Shown here piece after piece: positions 7,473 to 43,312 of a stretch of DNA of 43,312 nt (the stretch's first letter is position 1; the number at the start of each line of letters is the position of its first letter). The position numbers were made by a program, and so were the translations under genes. The notes under the pieces were generated by a model. That model did no database searches and was not told where the DNA came from. It saw only the letters and a list, made by a program, of their open reading frames with translations. The stretch is from the NCBI GenBank assembly GCA_029975295.1, contig JARKPK010000174.1, positions 1 through 43,312 of the forward strand. The letters are read 5' to 3'. This DNA comes from Thermoguttaceae bacterium. Lineage in GTDB: Bacteria > Planctomycetota > Planctomycetia > Pirellulales > Thermoguttaceae.

Positions 7473-9197
7473 ATGCCCAATCGCCGCCGTCCTTTTGCCG
7501 GATTGCTTCGGGTGTTGCAGAACGCCGCGGAGCCAGTGTATGTGCTCGACGAGCAACGGCGGATCGCATTCGCCAACGACGCCTGTTTGGCCTGGGTCGG
7601 ACTGCCGTGGGACGAGCTGTTCGGCCGAACCTGCCTCTATCAAACGCCGGCAGAGCCCTCGGGGCCCGAGGCGATCGCCGCCGCGCTGGCCGCTCCGCCC
7701 CGCACCGAGCGAGGCGAGTCGGCCGAAGATCTGATTTGCCTGCCGAGCGATTTGCCGCGGCCGCGACGGGCGGCGTTCCTTCCCTTGCGCTGGGGGGCCG
7801 GCTCGGCCGGCCGCGAAACCCGTCCGGCCGGCGTGCTGGTCGTGGTCGAACCGGCCGATCCACCGGAGCAAACAGAATCGCCGGTGCTGCCGCTTGATTC
7901 GGCGGCCCAACCCGACGACGCCCAATGGCACCTTTGGGTGCAGCGCGCCGTCCGCGAGGCGGCAACTGGTCATGGGGTGGCGCGGCTCATCGGGCGCAGT
8001 CCGGCCATGCGGTGGACGATTCGGCAGGTGGAGGCGGCGAAGGCGTCGAGGGCCAACGTGTTGTTTGTCGGTCCGATCGGATCGCAGACGGACCAGATCG
8101 CCTCGGCCGTTCACTTCGGCATCGAACCCGACGCGGCCGGCGCCTTGGTGCCTGTTGATTGCGCCGTGCTCGACGACGACATGATCCGGTCGAGCATTCG
8201 GGCCATGGCGGCTGGGGCAGCGGTTGGTCGATCGACTGGGCGAAGCACGCTGCTGCTTCTGCGAATTGATCTGCTTTCCGAACCGTGGCAAAAGACCCTT
8301 CTGGAAGAGATCGGCAAACCGCGGTTTCCCCTGCGCGTGATGGCCACCGTCGAGCGCCCCCGTGCCGCGGAGACCTTCGAACAGTTGGTCTTGCCGGAAC
8401 TCTTGGCCGCCACCGCGGCCATCGTCGTCAACATCCCGCCGCTGGCCCAGCGGCGTGAAGACATTCCGCTGCTGGCTCAATTCTTTCTCGAACAGTGCAA
8501 TTCCGCTGGGAAAAAGCAGGTCGAGCGATTCTCGGCCGAAGCGATCGATTTGCTCGATCACTACCATTGGCCGGGCGACATGGCCGAGATGGAGCGATTC
8601 GTGCGTCAAGCCCATGCCAACGCGGAGGGGGCCGTCGTGCTGCCGGCCGACCTGCCGCGGCGCATCCACTGGACGCTCGATGCCCATCGACGTCGCCCAA
8701 GGCAGCCGCGGATTCATCTCGATTCGTTCCTTCGCCAAGTCGAAAAGGAACTGATCATCCGCGCGCTGCGACAGGCCCGCGGCAATCGGGCCAAGGCCTC
8801 GCGGCTCTTGGGCATCAGTCGTCCCCGGCTTTACCGACGAATGATGTTGCTGGGGTTGGCCGGCTCGGGCGAAATGGACGAATCCCCCGCTTCGCAATCG
8901 CCGTCGAGCGGCACAGTGCGCACTGCGACGGAAGACGCTTTGCCGGATGCGGCAGAAAAGGCGTTGGGCAAACGGCGGCCGAGTCGAACCGGTCGTCGGG
9001 CCGCGCCGCTGAGCGAGTGTTCTCAAGCCCAGTCGCCGCGAGCGCAAAGCGATTCGCCCGCGCCGGCGGCCGAAAGCGATGCCGAGCCAAGGCTGGAAAC
9101 GAGCGGAAGCGACGATGCCGCGCCGCCGGACGCGACATGGGACAACGCCATGCCGGTGTTCGAAGAAGCGGAACCGCCGATGGAGCCGGAGGAATGA
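7473..9197 (+). CDS. sigma-54-activator-like regulator with degenerate ATPase core (PAS, AAA-like, Fis HTH)
   Basis: 574 residues from ATG 7473. A PAS-like domain (about 10-60: FAGLLRVLQNAAEPVYVLDE..RIAFANDACLAWVG) precedes a region with the layout of a sigma-54 activator: LIGRSPAMRWTIRQVE at 172-187, IPPLAQRREDIPLLAQFFLEQ at 321-341 and HWPGDMAEMERFV at 365-377. A Fis-type helix-turn-helix follows (RALRQARGNRAKASRLLGISRPRLYRR, about 430-456), then a 110-residue low-complexity tail. The ATPase signatures are lost: the Walker A place reads GPIGSQTDQ (200-208), there is no GAFTGA loop, and the Walker B place reads LLLLRID. It should therefore bind DNA but not open sigma-54 promoters. Its stop overlaps the next start as ATGA. 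Calling it a regulator is safe; its mode of action is not known. Confidence 0.85.
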   Translation: MPNRRRPFAGLLRVLQNAAEPVYVLDEQRRIAFANDACLAWVGLPWDELFGRTCLYQTPAEPSGPEAIAAALAAPPRTERGESAEDLICLPSDLPRPRRAAFLPLRWGAGSAGRETRPAGVLVVVEPADPPEQTESPVLPLDSAAQPDDAQWHLWVQRAVREAATGHGVARLIGRSPAMRWTIRQVEAAKASRANVLFVGPIGSQTDQIASAVHFGIEPDAAGALVPVDCAVLDDDMIRSSIRAMAAGAAVGRSTGRSTLLLLRIDLLSEPWQKTLLEEIGKPRFPLRVMATVERPRAAETFEQLVLPELLAATAAIVVNIPPLAQRREDIPLLAQFFLEQCNSAGKKQVERFSAEAIDLLDHYHWPGDMAEMERFVRQAHANAEGAVVLPADLPRRIHWTLDAHRRRPRQPRIHLDSFLRQVEKELIIRALRQARGNRAKASRLLGISRPRLYRRMMLLGLAGSGEMDESPASQSPSSGTVRTATEDALPDAAEKALGKRRPSRTGRRAAPLSECSQAQSPRAQSDSPAPAAESDAEPRLETSGSDDAAPPDATWDNAMPVFEEAEPPMEPEE

Positions 9198-9889
9198 CCG
9201 AACGCAACCGTCGCCCCGCGCCGCCCGACGCAACGCATAAGGCCGCCTCGGCCGATGCGATCGAGAAGGAGAGCGACCATCGGGCCGTCGTTCCGGTCGA
9301 TGCCGGCCTGCCGCTTGGGGCCGCCTTGGCATTGAGCGAGCGCGACGAGTTGCTGCGACCCATCTCATCGGGCAGCTTGCTGGTGAAGGTAGATGACCCG
9401 TTATGGCATGTTGTTCTGCGGCGGAGTTGGGTGGACGCGTTCGCAGATGGGACATCGCCGCTATTGCGCTGGCGGCGCGTGGCGTTTGTCGAACAGTTGG
9501 CCGAGTGTTTGGCCACGCAGCCCGCCGCCATGGTGTGCGTTGAATACACGCAGCCCGACGCGAGACGCATTCTCGATTTATTGATCGCCCTGCGTCGGCA
9601 CTGCCCGGCGGCGCGGTGCGTGGTGGTTGGTTCGCGCCGCTGGGCATCGCGCGAGTGGGGGCTTCGGCAGGCGGGGGCCACGCTCTGTTGCTGGTCGCCG
9701 CGGCAGGCGGGGGCGCTGGCCGGCCTGTGGCGACGCCATGCCCGACTGTCGCCGGTCTTGAAGCTGTCGCCATGGAAGAAAGTGGCCGCGCGGATGCCCT
9801 GGCCGCCGCTTGAGGTCGCCGGAGACGATCGGCCGCGAAGCGATAGCGACCACCCCAACAGCCCGCCTTCCGCCGACGCGATTTGCTGA
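9194..9889 (+). CDS. unknown protein coupled to the degenerate regulator
   Basis: 231 residues. The ATG at 9194 overlaps the TGA of the regulator (ATGA) and has GGAGGA just upstream, so it is translated with it. Residues about 50-75 (SSGSLLVKVDDPLWHVVLRRSW) and 86-165 look like a small alpha/beta domain: an AMVCVEYTQPDARRILDLLIALRRHCPAARCVVVGSRRW segment resembles the beta4-alpha4-beta5 part of a receiver-like fold, without acidic or Lys markers. Both ends are low complexity. I do not recognise a family. The coupling suggests a stoichiometric partner of the regulator; this is inference. Confidence 0.7.
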   Translation: MTERNRRPAPPDATHKAASADAIEKESDHRAVVPVDAGLPLGAALALSERDELLRPISSGSLLVKVDDPLWHVVLRRSWVDAFADGTSPLLRWRRVAFVEQLAECLATQPAAMVCVEYTQPDARRILDLLIALRRHCPAARCVVVGSRRWASREWGLRQAGATLCCWSPRQAGALAGLWRRHARLSPVLKLSPWKKVAARMPWPPLEVAGDDRPRSDSDHPNSPPSADAIC

Positions 9890-9933
9890 GTATCGTAAGG
9901 GTTCCTTGAGCGTAAGTGCGAGGTGAACATCGA

Positions 9934-11175
9934 ATGTCACGGACATCGAACTTGCCGACAGCGAAAGCTCCTCCTCGCGTCCGTGAATTGCGGGTAAGGA
10001 ACTTCCGCGCGTTGCGCGATGTGGAAATCAAAGATGTTACGCCTTTGACTGTGCTGTTGGGGCCGAACGGTAGCGGGAAATCCACGATCTTCGACGTGTT
10101 CGCATTCTTGGCGGAATGCTTTGAAGTTGGGCTACGGGGTGCCTGGGACAAGCGAGGGCGTGCCAAGGAACTGAAGACTCGCGGCGTTTCGGAGCCGATA
10201 ACGATCGAGATCAAGTACAAAGAAGCAAACTATCCGACAATCACTTATCATCTTTCCGTCAATGAAGAGAGCGGGCGCCCGGTGGTTGTGGAAGAGTGGC
10301 TTCAATGGCGGCGAATGCAACGGGGAAAACCGTTCCGCTTCTTGGAATACCGCGAGGGCAAGGGACGGGCGGTGAGTGGCGAATTGCCCGACGCCCAGGA
10401 TCGACGCGTCGATATTCCGCTAAAAAGCGCGGATCTGCTGGCCGTCAATGCTTTGGGACAATTCGAGGAGCATCCCCGCGTTGCGGCGCTGCGCGAGTTC
10501 ATCACCGGTTGGCATGTTACCTACCTGTCGGCCGAGTCAGCCCGGGGCCAACCCGAAGCCGGCCCGCAAGAGAGGCTCTCGCGAACCGGCGACAACTTGG
10601 CCAATGTGATCCAATACTTGGCGGAACAGCATCCGAAACGTTTGCAACGGATTTATCGGGTGCTTGGCGAACGCGTTCCCCGCGTCGAGCGCGTGCTGGC
10701 CGAGCCGATGCCCGACGGCCGACTCCTGTTGCAAATCAAAGACGCGCCCTTCTCGCAGCCGATCCTGGCGAAGTTCTCTTCCGACGGAACATTGAAGATG
10801 CTTGCGTATTTGACGGTCTTGTACGATCCTGCGCCGCCGCCGTTCATCGGCATTGAAGAACCCGAGAACTTTTTGCATCCGCGATTGCTGCCGGGTTTGG
10901 CCGAGGAATGTAGGCAGTCCTCCGAGCGAACCCAAATACTGGCGACCACCCATTCCCCGTTCTTTCTCAACGGGTTGCGGCCCGAAGAAGTGCGCGTGCT
11001 GTGGCGCGATCGAGATGGGCATACGCGAACGGAATGCGTCGGCAAGATTGCAAAGGTGCGCGAGCTTGTCGCGCAAGGGGCGGCATTGGGCGATTTATGG
11101 ATGGAAGGTTTCTTCGGCTCGGGCGACCCGTTGGTCAATCAGGGCGAGCCGGTGCGTCAATCGTCCGTGAACTAG
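9934..11175 (+). CDS. OLD/RecF-like AAA ATPase (AAA_15/AAA_21), partner of DUF4276 protein
   Basis: 413 residues from ATG 9934, with AGGTG 9 nt upstream; a GTG at 9916 is an alternative. The ABC/SMC-type ATPase is complete: [14 protein letters not shown] at 19-32, Walker [10 protein letters not shown] at 43-51, signature-like SSDGT at 282-286, Walker [10 protein letters not shown] at 304-312 and H-loop TTHSPFF at 338-344. There is no C-terminal TOPRIM domain; that activity appears to be supplied by the TOPRIM-like protein encoded 6 bp downstream. Split ATPase plus TOPRIM pairs include anti-phage systems such as PARIS, and fused versions include OLD and Gabija GajA. The gene is poorer in GC than its flanks (about 40% in line 10201), suggesting transfer. 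It ends with TAG. Confidence 0.9.
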
Positions 11176-11181
11176 CCGCCG

Positions 11182-11799
11182 ATGACCTCGCATTTGGTGT
11201 TTTTCGTGGAAGAGCAATCGATGGAGGCGTTTTTGCGCGCCGTCCTGCCGAAGTTGTTGCCCGGACGCGTTTTTTGGGACATCCACGCTTTTCAAGGCAA
11301 GCAAGACCTGTTGCGAAAACTTCCGAATCGGTTGCGCGGTCTTGCTCGGGTACTGGCTCCGACTTCGAAGATCGTTGTACTGGTCGATCGAGATGATGAC
11401 GATTGCCGCCGATTGAAGAAGGAAGTTGAAAGCATTGCGGCTCAAGCCGGGCTCAGAGCAGGGAGTGCCCAGCTCTCCGATCGGGAGATGATCAATAGAA
11501 TCGTCGTCGAGGAACTAGAAGCCTGGTACTTCGGCGATTGGGAAGCGGTACGCGAAATCTTTCCTAAGGTGTCATCGAACGTTCCGTCGAAGAAGCAGTT
11601 CCGCGATCCCGACGCCATCGCCGGAGGAACTTGGGAGACGTTGGAGCGCCTTTTGCAAAGGGCAGGGTATTACAAAACCGGCATCGCCAAGATTGCATTG
11701 GCTCAATCCGTCGGATCGAGATTCGATCCCAATCGCTGTACGAGTCGCAGTTTTCGTTGTTTTCGTGATGCATTGCGTGAAGTCGTTTCCGAGGGTTGA
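11182..11799 (+). CDS. DUF4276 family, TOPRIM-like putative nuclease
   Basis: 205 residues, starting 6 bp after the ATPase stop. The N-terminal strand carries a FFVEEQSM motif with Glu10/Glu11, and IVVLVDRDDDDCRRLKKE at 64-81 carries an acidic cluster (Asp69, Asp71-74); together they match the Glu and DxD metal-binding layout of TOPRIM folds. Residues 107-119 (IVVEELEAWYFGD) are the conserved EExEAW segment of DUF4276, and the C-terminus has FRDPDAIAGGTWETLERLLQRAGYY, also familiar from that family. DUF4276 genes are commonly found just downstream of AAA_21-type ATPases. A nuclease activated by the ATPase partner is inferred from the TOPRIM resemblance; it has not been shown here. Confidence 0.85.
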   Translation: MTSHLVFFVEEQSMEAFLRAVLPKLLPGRVFWDIHAFQGKQDLLRKLPNRLRGLARVLAPTSKIVVLVDRDDDDCRRLKKEVESIAAQAGLRAGSAQLSDREMINRIVVEELEAWYFGDWEAVREIFPKVSSNVPSKKQFRDPDAIAGGTWETLERLLQRAGYYKTGIAKIALAQSVGSRFDPNRCTSRSFRCFRDALREVVSEG

Positions 11800-11940
11800 A
11801 GAATTGCAAGCGACAGAGGAGTCCGTTAAGACCGAAGGACCGACTGCACGCCGGTATTGCGGAACAAGCTTCTCAAGGATACATCATGGCAAGACAACAA
11901 TCTCTTGACGCATTTGATTCGCCCAACGACGGAGCACCCG

Positions 11941-13020
11941 ATGGCTGCAACGCCCTTCCGTGAAGAAATCGTCCGCGAGGTTCTCGCTTCGTTCGCCGAT
12001 CCCGAGTCGGGCCGAAGCATCGTGCAGATGGAGCAGGTGCATCGGCTCGCCTGCGAAGGCGATCGCCTCGAAGTCGTGCTCGGGCTGACCACCCACAGCG
12101 CGCCGATCTGGAACGAAACCCGCGACGAACTGCTGGCGCTGCTGCGCGGCAAGTTTCCCGACAAAACGATCAACGTCGTCGTCGAACGCCACGAGCGCAA
12201 GCCCGAAAAGCTCGGCGAAATCGGGCTGACGGCCAAGACCGTGCTGGCCGTCGGCGCCGGCAAAGGCGGCGTGGGGAAAAGCTCGGTGGCCGCCTACTTG
12301 GCCTATGGGCTGGCCCGGGCGGGCTGTGCGGTGGGGTTGATGGATGCCGATGTCTATGGCCCGAGCATCCCGCACCTGCTGGGCACCTCCGAGCGACCGG
12401 TGCTCGTGGGCGATCGCATCCAACCGATCGTCGTCGATGGCCTGCGGGTGATGTCGATGGGCCTGCTCATCCCGCCCGGCGAACCGGTGGCGTGGCGCGG
12501 GCCGATGCTGCATAAGTACCTTGCCCAATTCCTCGGCGACACCGCCTGGGGCGATCTCGATTACCTGGTGATCGACATGCCGCCGGGCACGGGCGACGTG
12601 GCCCTTTCGCTTTCGCAATTGCTGCCGCTGAGCGGGGCAGTGGTCGTGTGTACGCCGCAGCAGGTGGCGCTGCTCGACGCCGTCCGCGCCGTGGGCATGT
12701 TCCGCAAGGTGAACATCGAAGTTCACGGCATGGTCGAAAACATGAGCTTCTTCCTCTGCCCGAATTGCAGCAGCCGGCACGAACTGTTCGGCTCGGGCGG
12801 TGCGCGGCGCGCGGCGGCCGAGTTGCAGGTTCCCTTCCTCGGCGAACTGCCGCTGGTGCCGCAACTGCGGCAATGGGCCGACGAAGGCCGAATCGGCAAA
12901 AGCTTCGACGATCCGACGGCCCGGCCCTATCTGGAAGCGATCGTCTTGCGGTTGGTTCGCAACCTGGCGGCCAAACAGCGTCGCGAGCCGACCCTGCCGC
13001 CGCTGAACATCTTGCATTGA
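11941..13020 (+). CDS. mrp: Mrp/ApbC (NBP35-like) iron-sulfur cluster carrier ATPase
   Basis: 359 residues from ATG 11941, with GGAG 7 nt upstream. An N-terminal MIP18/DUF59 domain (about 6-85) precedes the ParA/MinD-like ATPase with the deviant Walker A GKGGVGKSS at 108-116, DADVYGPSIPHLLG at 135-148, and DMPPGTGDVALSLSQ at 212-226. The FLCPNC motif (Cys273, Cys276) is the cluster-bridging CxxC. Members bind a labile Fe-S cluster at the dimer interface and hand it to apo-proteins in the cytosol. Length and domain order are normal for bacterial Mrp. It lies 141 bp after the ATPase/DUF4276 pair and is not obviously part of it. Confidence 0.95.
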   Translation: MAATPFREEIVREVLASFADPESGRSIVQMEQVHRLACEGDRLEVVLGLTTHSAPIWNETRDELLALLRGKFPDKTINVVVERHERKPEKLGEIGLTAKTVLAVGAGKGGVGKSSVAAYLAYGLARAGCAVGLMDADVYGPSIPHLLGTSERPVLVGDRIQPIVVDGLRVMSMGLLIPPGEPVAWRGPMLHKYLAQFLGDTAWGDLDYLVIDMPPGTGDVALSLSQLLPLSGAVVVCTPQQVALLDAVRAVGMFRKVNIEVHGMVENMSFFLCPNCSSRHELFGSGGARRAAAELQVPFLGELPLVPQLRQWADEGRIGKSFDDPTARPYLEAIVLRLVRNLAAKQRREPTLPPLNILH

Positions 13021-40070: not shown

Positions 40071-40748
40071 CTACGCTGATGTTTTGCGAGGGCGGCCGCG
40101 GGGCCGAAGTGTACTTTCCAAGCCAAGACGAGCGGCGGTGGCTTCGATCCAGGCGGCCGGACCGAAGGGAACCCCGCGGGCGATGCTCCGTCGCAGCGAG
40201 GCCAACTCCGCTTCGGACGCCGGCGTGTTCACGTGCTCCACCCAATTCGCCGCTCGCGGCAAAGGCCAAGCCGAAAGCAAGGCTTTCTCAGCCGTTGTTC
40301 CCCGCGACCAGCGGTAAAGACTCCCCCAACGCCAAGCCTCGGCCCGCTTCACCAAGTTGGCCCGAACCGCGTTTCGCTCGACAAAGCGCACCACCGCATG
40401 CAGGTGTTCGTCGTCGGCGACGGGAAACGATTTGAAACGGCCCTGATACAGACGCCCGCGCTCGATCGTCGCGCGCTGGGCGCGCCGGCGCTGGGTGTGG
40501 GTCAGCGCCAGCCAGCCGACAAATCGCGACAGTTCGCCATCGACTCGGGGCCAAACGACCAGATGCCAATGATTCGGCATCAGACAATAGGCCAAAAGCC
40601 GGGCGCCGCTGCGGGCGACGGCCTCTTCCATCACCTGCTCGAAGGCCGCGTAATCATCCGGTTCCTCGAAAACCAACCGCCCGGCGTTGGCGCGGTTCAG
40701 CACATGGTACACGTAGCCGCCGACAGCCGATCGCAAGGGTCGTCCCAT
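40071..40748 (-). CDS. REP-associated tyrosine transposase-like protein (Y1/IS200-type), probably inactive
   Basis: 225 residues from ATG 40748-40746. The Y1 transposase fold is recognisable: HVLNRANAGRLVFEE at 15-29, the HUH motif MPNHWHLVVWP with His60 and His62, GRLYQGRFKSFPV at 98-110 and RFVERNAVRANLV at 121-133. In relatives the last segment reads RYVERNPVRAxLV, with the Tyr that attacks DNA; here Phe122 occupies that place. The C-terminal extension resembles other RAYT proteins. No terminal repeats or REP palindromes were found on either side, only one 8-base inverted pair (AACCCGTT/AACGGGTT). The protein may be a domesticated or dead copy. Confidence 0.85.
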   Translation of the reverse strand: MGRPLRSAVGGYVYHVLNRANAGRLVFEEPDDYAAFEQVMEEAVARSGARLLAYCLMPNHWHLVVWPRVDGELSRFVGWLALTHTQRRRAQRATIERGRLYQGRFKSFPVADDEHLHAVVRFVERNAVRANLVKRAEAWRWGSLYRWSRGTTAEKALLSAWPLPRAANWVEHVNTPASEAELASLRRSIARGVPFGPAAWIEATAARLGLESTLRPRGRPRKTSA

Positions 40749-40889
40749 GCCCGCTAATGTAGCCGGGCCCAACACCCGCGGCAAGCAACAAAACCGGTTC
40801 CCAAGAAACGGGTTCTTATTGATCGCCTGCAACGCAACCTTGGAAGATCGGGTTGGCGGCAAACGGCGGCCTTCGCCGGCCTCATCGGA

Positions 40890-41782: not shown

Positions 41783-42346
41783 TCAGATGGATGCGTCTGC
41801 CGCGGTTGTTTCAATCCATCGCAGAAAGTCACGAATTCCACATCGACACGTTTCTATTGAACCAACTTCGACAGGCAATGAGATATTTAGCATTGCCGCC
41901 AAACGTTTGCGATCGTCACTGGAAAGCGATGACGGCGAACTACTAGACCAAACGAATGGTGTAGCGAGTTGGCATTGCATTAACCAATCGGTACCAGTAG
42001 ATCGATCGTAGACTAAACGACATGCGAACTGGCGCTGTAAGAACTCTACGGCCCTCTCCGATGGAAACTCTACGGCTTCTGTTGTTCCCAGCAGAATGCG
42101 TTCGAGGTCATCCAAAAAGACATGGAGCATTGAGAGCGGTCCTCCGAATAGTACCTCACCGGCGAACCCGCCACCGACAAAATGAATCTTCAGCCCGACT
42201 TGGTTGTTGGGATCATTGCCGAGGCGTGGCCATGCGATGCTGTCGGGTGTGATGGTGAGTTGGCCACCAATACCTGCAACCGTGAACGAAAACCCTTCAA
42301 ATGCCCAAGCGCCAGAAGGGAGTTTGTACCCAAATCCTTCGCTCAT
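41783..42346 (-). CDS. probable immunity protein for the RHS toxin
   Basis: 187 residues. ATG 42346-42344 overlaps the TGA of the RHS gene as ATGA, the arrangement expected of a polymorphic toxin followed by its immunity protein. The sequence has a beta-rich first half (FSFTVAGIGGQLTITPDSIAWPRLG, then VGLKIHFVGGGFAGEVLFGGPLSMLHVFLDDLERILLG) and a charged helical C-terminus. No known domain is recognised and there is no signal peptide, so it would act in the cytosol. Counted lines here are about 50% GC, below the bulk of the window. The role is inferred from position and composition only; it could also be an RHS-associated protein of other function. Confidence 0.6.
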   Translation of the reverse strand: MSEGFGYKLPSGAWAFEGFSFTVAGIGGQLTITPDSIAWPRLGNDPNNQVGLKIHFVGGGFAGEVLFGGPLSMLHVFLDDLERILLGTTEAVEFPSERAVEFLQRQFACRLVYDRSTGTDWLMQCQLATPFVWSSSSPSSLSSDDRKRLAAMLNISLPVEVGSIETCRCGIRDFLRWIETTAADASI

Positions 42347-43312
42347 TTAGAGTAATCTCCCGTCTTGTTGCCACCGGGCAAGTGCGGTGCCCCCTGTCCT
42401 CCGGGAGTTCCAAAAGGTTTGGCGTAACCGGCATAGACACCTGACGTTGTATCACAACATGGACATGTAAATACGCTCACCATGTCCTTTCCCGTGACCC
42501 AGACTCCGAGGCGCGAAGTTATCAGAGCCTTGCAATGGAATGTAAGAGATGGGAAAGCACCACAGATGGCGTTTGGGCCGGGAATCAACTGCACTGGATT
42601 GCAGTTTACTGGTTCTAAGCCTACTGTGTACGGAACGATTCCAAGGAACTGGAGATCTGCAAAGAATCGCTGCGCGACTTCCTTGACCGACTCATCCAAC
42701 GTCATGCCAGGCTTAGGGCAGGGTTTCGACAGTAAATCATTTCGGCAGTCGGCGCGAAATTCTCGCCAACATCGTTTTGCATAATCCTCCCATTCTTTAG
42801 TACCAGGCAAAGGCTCCAGCCAAGGCCCAGTTCCCTTCGGATAACCTGGCGGCAAAGGAGTGGGATAGGGAAACGGCAGAGACGGCGGCGAGCTAGATGG
42901 TCCGGAACTTCCCGACGGAGGCCAGTGCGGTTGCGGTTGTTGCCCTGGGCGCCCGGGACGGACTGGAGGGCGGCCAGGAATCACCGGTGGCCGCGGAGGA
43001 GTGATGGGCGGGCGGACTGGCGGTGCTATTGGCCCGCGTAGCCCATAGGGATCTCCGCCGGATGTTGGAGAACCGTTGGCGTACAAGTACAGGTTCAAGT
43101 AGCCCGCGATATAACCTACAGGATCTTGCTGCAGCCACCTACCCAACGCGCTATTCAATATCCTAAATCTAACTAAATAGCTCCACGGTGCGAGCGTAGC
43201 GCTGGGCGGGGAGGTTTGTCGACCGGGAAGTTTGCCGCAAAATCCCTCTGGAAATGAGAACAGGCTTGGCTCTAAGGTAGTTGTTGTTGGTGTGAGTGTC
43301 ATGCAACAACTG
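42343..43312 (-). CDS. RHS repeat C-terminal tip with Pro-rich linker and Cys-rich putative toxin domain, 5' end off the window
   Basis: The frame is open at the right edge; from the first ATG (43302) 319 residues remain. Residues 53-64 (LGRWLQQDPVGY) and 70-88 (NLYLYANGSPTSGGDPYGL) are the end of the RHS core, where the toxin is cut from the shell. Then comes a 65-residue proline-rich linker (90-155) and a C-terminal domain (158-319) with nine cysteines, including a CPCC cluster at 280-283. This tip resembles no toxin family I know. RHS proteins deliver variable C-terminal toxins through secretion systems, and the immunity gene normally follows, as here. The N-terminal part in the window (1-45) is weakly RHS-like, so the gene may be a truncated tip or continue beyond the window. 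Confidence 0.8.
   Translation of the reverse strand, partial: SCCMTLTPTTTTLEPSLFSFPEGFCGKLPGRQTSPPSATLAPWSYLVRFRILNSALGRWLQQDPVGYIAGYLNLYLYANGSPTSGGDPYGLRGPIAPPVRPPITPPRPPVIPGRPPVRPGRPGQQPQPHWPPSGSSGPSSSPPSLPFPYPTPLPPGYPKGTGPWLEPLPGTKEWEDYAKRCWREFRADCRNDLLSKPCPKPGMTLDESVKEVAQRFFADLQFLGIVPYTVGLEPVNCNPVQLIPGPNAICGAFPSLTFHCKALITSRLGVWVTGKDMVSVFTCPCCDTTSGVYAGYAKPFGTPGGQGAPHLPGGNKTGDYSK

Follow-up and report, generated by a model that had tools for sequence, protein, structure and literature searches.

Our analysis of a 43,312-nucleotide stretch of DNA from a Thermoguttaceae bacterium (hereafter, the window) leads us to regard two adjacent genes, A and B, as quite probably a HEC-01 defence module, that is, a split OLD system of an ATPase sensor and a TOPRIM effector, whose action would probably be abortive. 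Gene A (9934-11175, plus strand; 413 aa, with a GTG at 9916 as an alternative start) encodes an ABC ATPase of the SMC/Rad50/OLD type that carries no nuclease domain (HEC-01A in PADLOC), as judged from Pfam (AAA_21/AAA_15), PADLOC and an AlphaFold2 model. Gene B (11182-11799, plus strand; 205 aa) encodes a DUF4276 protein (HEC-01B in PADLOC), which from PF14103, PADLOC and its model is a predicted nuclease with a free-standing OLD-like TOPRIM and a helical domain. The stop of A and the start of B are separated by a 6-bp gap (11176-11181), while many relatives show a 4-bp or 1-bp overlap there. The original prediction, which was made from the letters of the window, described two genes 6 bp apart that are lower in GC than their flanks and lie between unrelated genes, and this gene-pair observation is confirmed. 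The GC content is 0.586 in A and 0.537 in B, against 0.681 in ORF X upstream and 0.660 in Mrp downstream, and the flanking genes are unrelated ones, since they encode a sigma-54-type regulator, ORF X, an Mrp/ApbC protein and an FAD oxidoreductase. Over its own length the pair has a GC content of 0.571, compared with a sliding-window mean of 0.635; equally low values occur in 25 of 829 sliding windows of the same length, including those overlapping the pair. B is the sole DUF4276 match in the host genome (E<=0.001), and profile searches for HSDR_N and PglZ found no match in that genome, so that the pair stands alone here.

With regard to known systems in PADLOC-DB 2.0.0, A matched the HEC-01A model PDLC04182 (E=1.5e-156, residues 14-398) and B matched the HEC-01B model PDLC04202 (E=3.4e-80, residues 4-203), far above the models of other systems; the best match of A outside HEC-01 was AriA (1.7e-28). 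The HEC-01B model was also matched by all 65 aligned B proteins (E<=0.01). Models with the opposite labels were matched as well (A to PDLC04144 'HEC-01B', 2.4e-112; B to PDLC04143 'HEC-01A', 1.4e-30), which looks like a labelling matter. The two adjacent genes on the same strand, 6 bp apart, correspond to the HEC-01 arrangement and the gene order is as in relatives, though the copy in the window lies alone between the regulator with ORF X and mrp. Because HEC-01 is already in PADLOC, the pair belongs, by its sequence matches, to a candidate system that had been listed before and is not a new candidate. HEC-01 is reportedly the Hma-embedded candidate of a 2024 preprint by Payne et al. Several of the HECs (Hma-embedded candidates) are described as active in parts of two papers (PMC12988326, PMC12111858), and HECs are also mentioned in passages of two others (PMC11411939, PMC12755874). 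Our literature search, in papers other than bioRxiv preprints and in texts without supplementary files, returned no paper with DUF4276 or PF14103, nor one with HEC-01 together with PADLOC.

The protein encoded by A scored well above the Pfam cut-offs for AAA_21 (103 bits; cut-off 27) and AAA_15 (65.2 bits; cut-off 32.1). The residues of the ATP-binding loop (G43, N45, G46, G48, K49 and T51) are invariant in 64 of 64 aligned rows, the window included, and so are S283-G285, E308-N312 and H340-P342, in agreement with the complete SMC/OLD-type ATPase of the original prediction. The AlphaFold2 model of A (pLDDT 89.6) has an SMC/Rad50-type head. Among the best 50 matches listed by VIA-align, SMC and Rad50 heads and PtuA came best (Z 19.4-21.6), and Foldseek placed PtuA of Septu and retrons first and Thermus OLD at rank 36. 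As had been claimed, the ATPase has no TOPRIM of its own as far as Pfam detects one in A; with a TOPRIM-like B beside it, the pair looks like a split OLD.

As for B, the expected match to DUF4276 (PF14103) was obtained with 107.8 bits (cut-off 30.2; E=1e-30), and Pfam gave no other match at E<=0.1. The other half of that expectation, a match to TOPRIM, did not come out at the sequence level: no TOPRIM chain was found among PDB sequences by phmmer (E<=1) or by a 65-row profile (E<=10). The TOPRIM assignment of B is thus a structural one. The AlphaFold2 model, built with 65 sequences (mean pLDDT 91.8, pTM 0.89), runs strand-helix-strand-helix-strand-helix; strand 1 is followed by E10/E11 and strand 3 by D69-x-D71. 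The sole Foldseek match at E<=0.001 was the C-terminal region of Burkholderia OLD (6nk8_A, E=3.5e-4). The top four matches in VIA-align were all OLD C-terminal regions (Z 10.0-10.7 over 164-172 residues, rmsd 3.8-4.2; 6nk8_A, Z 10.7), followed by the uncharacterised PH0156 (Z 9.7, a tie). Chains of two PARIS complexes, taken as AriB by their length and fold, matched with Z 8.5 (8ux9_A; 162 residues, rmsd 4.5) and Z 7.9 (8v46_D), the latter slightly below the caution line of 8, and unrelated folds start at Z 6.8. The OLD C-terminal regions and the PARIS chains are among the seven best matches. The TOPRIM fold anticipated for B is therefore present in the predicted structure, with OLD first and PARIS next, which also supports the proposed split version of the OLD/Gabija layout and the parallel to PARIS.

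The predicted Toprim glutamate region of B (E10/E11/E15; 11209-11226, plus strand) follows strand 1 of the model, and E10 is conserved in 65, E11 in 62 and E15 in 58 of 65 rows. The DxD motif (D69/D71; 11386-11394, plus strand) follows strand 3, and both of its aspartates are conserved in all 65 rows; the glutamate and acidic cluster noticed at the outset agree with E10, D69 and D71. E111 (64/65), E113 (65/65) and K170 (62/65) are further near-invariant residues. In the Bp OLD protein, E400, E404, D455, D457, T506 and E508 are reported to bind metal, and K562 belongs to the helical domain (PMC6755086, in part). The E, DxD, E, K set of B appears to correspond in order and rough spacing to E400, D455, D457, T506, E508 and K562, a comparison made short of residue-level superposition, in which E10, E11 and E15 are not matched singly to E400 or E404. 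On account of the near-invariant Glu, DxD, Glu and Lys positions, B is probably a free-standing two-metal nuclease, as far as the model goes.

The segment that holds the pair (9890-11943) lies between ORF X (9194-9889, plus strand; 231 aa), which gave no Pfam match, and mrp, which starts at 11944. ORF X comes after the sigma-54-type regulator and was matched beside Mrp in 19 of 29 relatives. To compare the site with close genomes, we took the loci of the best 30 Mrp matches among 61 genomes, 29 of them other than that of the window. In the DNA fetched around Mrp, neither A nor B was matched in any of the 29 family loci. ORF X was matched in 19 of them when a small set of loci was searched and in 16 when all loci were searched, and in those 16 ORF X and Mrp are side by side without the pair, their match ends being -16 to 219 bp apart. 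That members of the same family have the flanking genes together but not the pair points to an insertion at the X-mrp site, as had been supposed. The absence from the 29 loci means either a gain at this site or a loss in every one of them, and the low GC of the pair and its broad distribution speak for gain. A target-site duplication at the insertion was considered and rejected: none of the 20 largest of 22 families of direct repeats (9 nt or longer) joins the two flanks. A DUF4276 match was present in 58 of 147 kin genomes, the host of the window included, and in 27 of the 29 other loci taken from the best matches an A-like ATPase is present in the short stretch of DNA fetched.

Other features of the window may be mentioned here. 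Two minus-strand frames, 42343-43302 and 41783-42346, overlap by 4 bp, and the first has a divergent tail in a GC-poor end (0.535-0.56). Neither gave a Pfam match at E<=1. The first starts with a stretch that we take to resemble the end of an Rhs core, and the two are candidates for a toxin tip and its immunity gene. Moreover, 40071-40862 (minus strand) encodes a protein with a Y1_Tnp (IS200-like) transposase domain (E=2.4e-12), which we presume may be REP-associated.

A profile search of GTDB genomes gave at least 80 loci, and in the best 80 A is 62-78% identical. The pairing is strongly conserved among these: a B match lies directly downstream on the same strand in 76 of the 80, and B is of full length in 61. 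The 19 loci failing the full-length filter include three in which the contig ends less than 600 bases from A (L088, L118, L128); in the remaining 16 of the 80, A has beside it no B, or a B that is truncated, broken up or fused. These losses beside a kept A were not counted for the preferred explanation, because the loci were picked by similarity to A, which favours an intact A. Of the four loci without a B match, one has a BREX PglZ directly after A (L124). Another has A, then a second, distant HEC-01A-like ATPase and then a 271-aa protein without a PADLOC match at E<=1e-6 (L117:11485-13511, plus strand). A third retains, in our reading, only the start of B (L092), and the last has a shortened A followed by other genes (L130). 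The ATPase is kept in two BREX loci on the plus strand with pglZ next to it, B being gone in one (L124:9863-13740) and a fragment in the other (L097:4380-8361). No natural fusion of A and B was found in the open frames of the best 80 genome loci; a long A frame in L081 was rejected as a fusion and read by us as a spurious upstream extension. In L131 (9423-10565, plus strand), the first part of B, up to and including the DRD motif, is fused in frame with a Macro domain (PF01661, E=2.5e-19).

The identities of A and B are correlated over 56 rows including the window (r=0.89; none of 1000 permutations as high), as expected for genes inherited together, and B changes faster than A (mean identity 0.53 versus 0.67). 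A quick tree of 79 of the 80 best loci (L138 left out) plus the window covers 17 named phyla, with two rows bearing no phylum name, and the phylum label changes 28 times on it. Two rows are archaeal (L130 and L140), and misbinning is possible for them because they are metagenome-assembled contigs. Judging from these sequences, the pair has spread widely by horizontal transfer. Plasmid records gave nine B matches and phage records gave none at E<=1e-3, while 14 loci on viral contigs carry a relative of A, with a B match also in L141, L142, L144 and L147.

Clustering of the neighbouring genes in 87 loci (80 genome and 7 viral) brought out HsdR, HsdS, HsdM, PglZ, BrxL and PglX. Type I R-M genes are present in 20 of the 80 best genome loci as well as in the viral contig L141, and BREX genes in 6, so that about a third (26/80) have R-M or BREX next to the pair, and all of these matches are on the strand of A. 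In 15 of the 80 the pair is flanked by an upstream hsdS and a downstream hsdR, from which other genes may separate it; in L068, L071, L072 and viral L141 the neighbouring genes abut or almost abut it on either side. The weaker R-M cases are a short HsdR piece only (L065, L069) and HsdM alone (L111, L118); in L130 HsdM and HsdS are downstream. HSDR_N was matched by 17 of 17 scanned HsdR proteins (16 genome loci plus L141, leaving out L064, a twin of L063), and the few HsdM and HsdS proteins scanned all matched. HsdR occurs in 17 of the 80 best loci compared with 0.8 expected in 1.29 Mb of locus DNA, an expectation derived from 149 HSDR_N matches in about 235 Mb, the sum of 50 genomes that we selected from the 80 hosts, which ignores the clustering of defence genes in islands and the L063/L064 twins. 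With regard to BREX, the order is pglX-A-B-pglZ-brxL in L103, and likewise in L097 and L124 with B reduced or gone; it is pglZ-A-B-brxL in L119, L106 opens with A-B-pglZ-brxL at its contig start, and L139 also begins at a contig start. The survey suggested with the original prediction thus found the pair recurring near defence genes. As the pair is also missing from the same site in its relatives and B has a predicted TOPRIM fold, neither of the outcomes named as refuting the prediction came about, and its interpretation is supported, the action against phage being presumed.

On the quick tree the R-M label changes 14 times, at least 10 of these forced by starred branches, whereas shuffled labels change 17.8 times on average and as few as 14 times in 11 of 500 shuffles. 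The label is thus clustered on the tree and the 20 R-M loci are not independent. To go by these sequences, the R-M setting is somewhat inherited yet often changed, gain and loss being indistinguishable. Neither R-M nor BREX was found in the DNA fetched for the other 54 loci, many of them on short contigs; as HSDR_N and PglZ are likewise unmatched in the host genome, the pair must be capable of working in the absence of both systems. Other settings were also seen. On the Meiothermus plasmid pMtWR-220 (L155:793-12650, plus strand), one operon on a single strand holds genes for a methyltransferase, DUF262, hsdS, DUF4433, a macro domain, A, B and hsdR. On a Rahnella plasmid, a distant pair of AAA_21 and DUF4276 lies between a phage antitermination gene and, past three short genes, lysis genes. 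The pair on Synechocystis pSYSM is near toxin-antitoxin genes and a phosphorothioation-linked gene, and that on a Pseudanabaena plasmid has no named defence neighbour.

These placements suggest a narrower form of the defence reading, namely that the module guards restriction: it would answer anti-restriction proteins (Ocr-like DNA mimics) or a disabled type I R-M or BREX system and then kill or stall the cell, like PARIS and PrrC. The prrC gene is located between hsdS and hsdR, as are many of our pairs, and T7 is the Ocr phage. According to parts of the literature, Ocr blocks R-M and BREX and triggers PARIS (PMC9122126), and prrC, embedded in a type IC operon, is unleashed by an anti-restriction peptide (PMC3874165, PMC2610378). 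The same idea is in print for TOPRIM-linked OLD-ABC pairs in BREX, which parts of a 2026 survey describe as backup effectors and propose to answer Ocr-like proteins (PMC12839542). Besides the type I R-M neighbours and the hsdS-pair-hsdR order with its touching or nearly touching ends, the BREX-embedded orders of L103, L097, L124 and L119 agree with it. On the other hand, the host genome of the window lacks HSDR_N and PglZ matches, neither system turned up in the DNA fetched for 54 of the 80 loci, and the fused ATPase-TOPRIM protein HEC-04 is reported in part of one paper to act on T4 and T5 but not on T7 (PMC12111858). We consider this narrower form possible but rather doubtful.

Alternatively, the pair could be a selfish addiction module like a toxin-antitoxin system, in which B is toxic, A restrains it, and mobile elements retain both for their stability and not for defence. 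The plasmid and prophage-like settings and the near-complete pairing would suit it, as would the 16 loci in which B is lost or damaged; same-strand R-M or BREX genes in 26 of the 80 best loci would be unexpected for a plain addiction module, and addiction and defence are not mutually exclusive. As a full explanation we think it improbable. Least probable of all, and in our judgement very unlikely, is an enzyme of DNA repair or chromosome maintenance, in which an SMC/Rad50-like ATPase and its nuclease partner process DNA ends with no defence role: SMC and Rad50 heads are indeed among the best fold matches of A, and Cran1, an OLD-family protein with a reported cell-cycle role, shows that a housekeeping role is possible for an ATPase-nuclease of this family, which counts against the defence reading (PMC12796447, in part), but the spread over 17 named phyla, in which the phylum label shifts 28 times on the tree, the absence of the pair at the same site in relatives, its plasmid copies and its placement in R-M and BREX operons do not fit such an enzyme.

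The preferred reading of a HEC-01 module for defence is favoured by the PADLOC matches, the predicted fold of B with its near-invariant putative catalytic residues, the conserved pairing, the wide spread, the pair-free site in relatives and the R-M and BREX settings. Besides Cran1, it has against it the 54 loci and the host genome in which neither R-M nor BREX turned up, the non-independence of the 20 R-M loci, the failure to link B with a solved TOPRIM by sequence, and the loci in which B is missing or damaged. On this reading we infer an A-B complex and a nuclease activity released on infection, as follows. A would be the sensor and regulator, an ABC-type ATPase, probably multimeric, that holds or controls B and probably restrains it in the complex. 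B would act as its effector, a TOPRIM nuclease in a chain of its own whose two-metal site is like that of OLD. When a phage infects the cell, A may sense a phage product as the trigger and free or activate B, which would then cut nucleic acid as its substrate, either DNA, in the manner of OLD/Gabija, or tRNA, in the manner of PARIS. The phage would be stopped, probably at the cost of the cell, giving the presumed defence phenotype.

A more general idea, which we put forward tentatively and hold to be somewhat unlikely as it stands, is that DUF4276/HEC-01 pairs are a general restriction guard made from a split OLD nuclease. They would be mobile cassettes of about 1.9 kb that settle repeatedly in the hsdS-hsdR interval of type I R-M operons and amid the pglX, pglZ and brxL genes of BREX; the ATPase would sense anti-restriction proteins and release the TOPRIM nuclease, and copies that stand alone, that of the window among them, would look out for these phage proteins with no R-M partner at hand. 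The guard logic at the hsdS-hsdR place is our extension, by analogy, of the published idea for BREX. Our analysis adds to this the location within type I R-M operons, the recurrent shifts of setting over the tree and a predicted set of OLD-like catalytic residues in DUF4276, a family that thereby gains a likely biochemical identity, on the strength of the model, as a free-standing OLD-type TOPRIM nuclease. The repeated hsdS-hsdR and BREX placement turns the catalogue entry HEC-01 into a testable model and makes anti-restriction proteins the first triggers to try.

Finally, the pair can be compared with systems of known or proposed function. OLD and the GajA protein of Gabija resemble it in having an ATPase plus a TOPRIM-helical nuclease, the putative catalytic residues of B appearing to be similarly placed, and in the structural comparison B came closest to OLD C-terminal regions (Z 10.0-10.7); they carry ATPase and TOPRIM in one polypeptide, whereas the pair has separate genes. 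No GajB-like UvrD helicase was found beside the pair, where the neighbours are the regulator, ORF X, Mrp and the FAD oxidoreductase. HEC-04 and IbfA also combine ATPase and TOPRIM and are described as phage defence in part of one paper (PMC12111858); they are fused single proteins, unlike the pair. The TOPRIM-linked OLD-ABC pairs of BREX resemble HEC-01 as an OLD-type ATPase with a TOPRIM nuclease within BREX loci, though the text of that survey names neither DUF4276 nor HEC-01 (PMC12839542).

PARIS (AriA and AriB) has the same two-gene plan of an SMC/OLD-type ATPase and a separate TOPRIM protein, and its chains match B with Z 7.9-8.5, though B is about 100 residues shorter than these chains and structurally closer to the OLD C-terminal regions. 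The PARIS detection rule, as given in part of its source, asks for AAA_15/AAA_21 at 32/27 bits and DUF4435 (PF14491) at 27 bits or more (PMC9122126). A exceeds both ATPase thresholds (65.2 and 103 bits) and the model of B has the AriB-like TOPRIM fold (8ux9_A, Z 8.5), but a Pfam scan at E<=0.1 found no DUF4435 in B. We therefore rejected B as a PARIS AriB and kept the analogy. In PARIS, AriA senses Ocr and AriB cuts tRNA, according to parts of two papers (PMC12409363, PMC9122126). PrrC and RloC, like HEC-01, link an ATPase to a nuclease within type I R-M operons, and HEC-01 relatives often lie between hsdS and hsdR; they are single proteins with HEPN nucleases instead of TOPRIM, and the pair of the window lies outside an R-M operon, in a host genome without an HSDR_N match, such a setting being found in its relatives only. 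By analogy, PARIS may be regarded as the nearest worked-out parallel of mechanism and PrrC as the nearest parallel of place.
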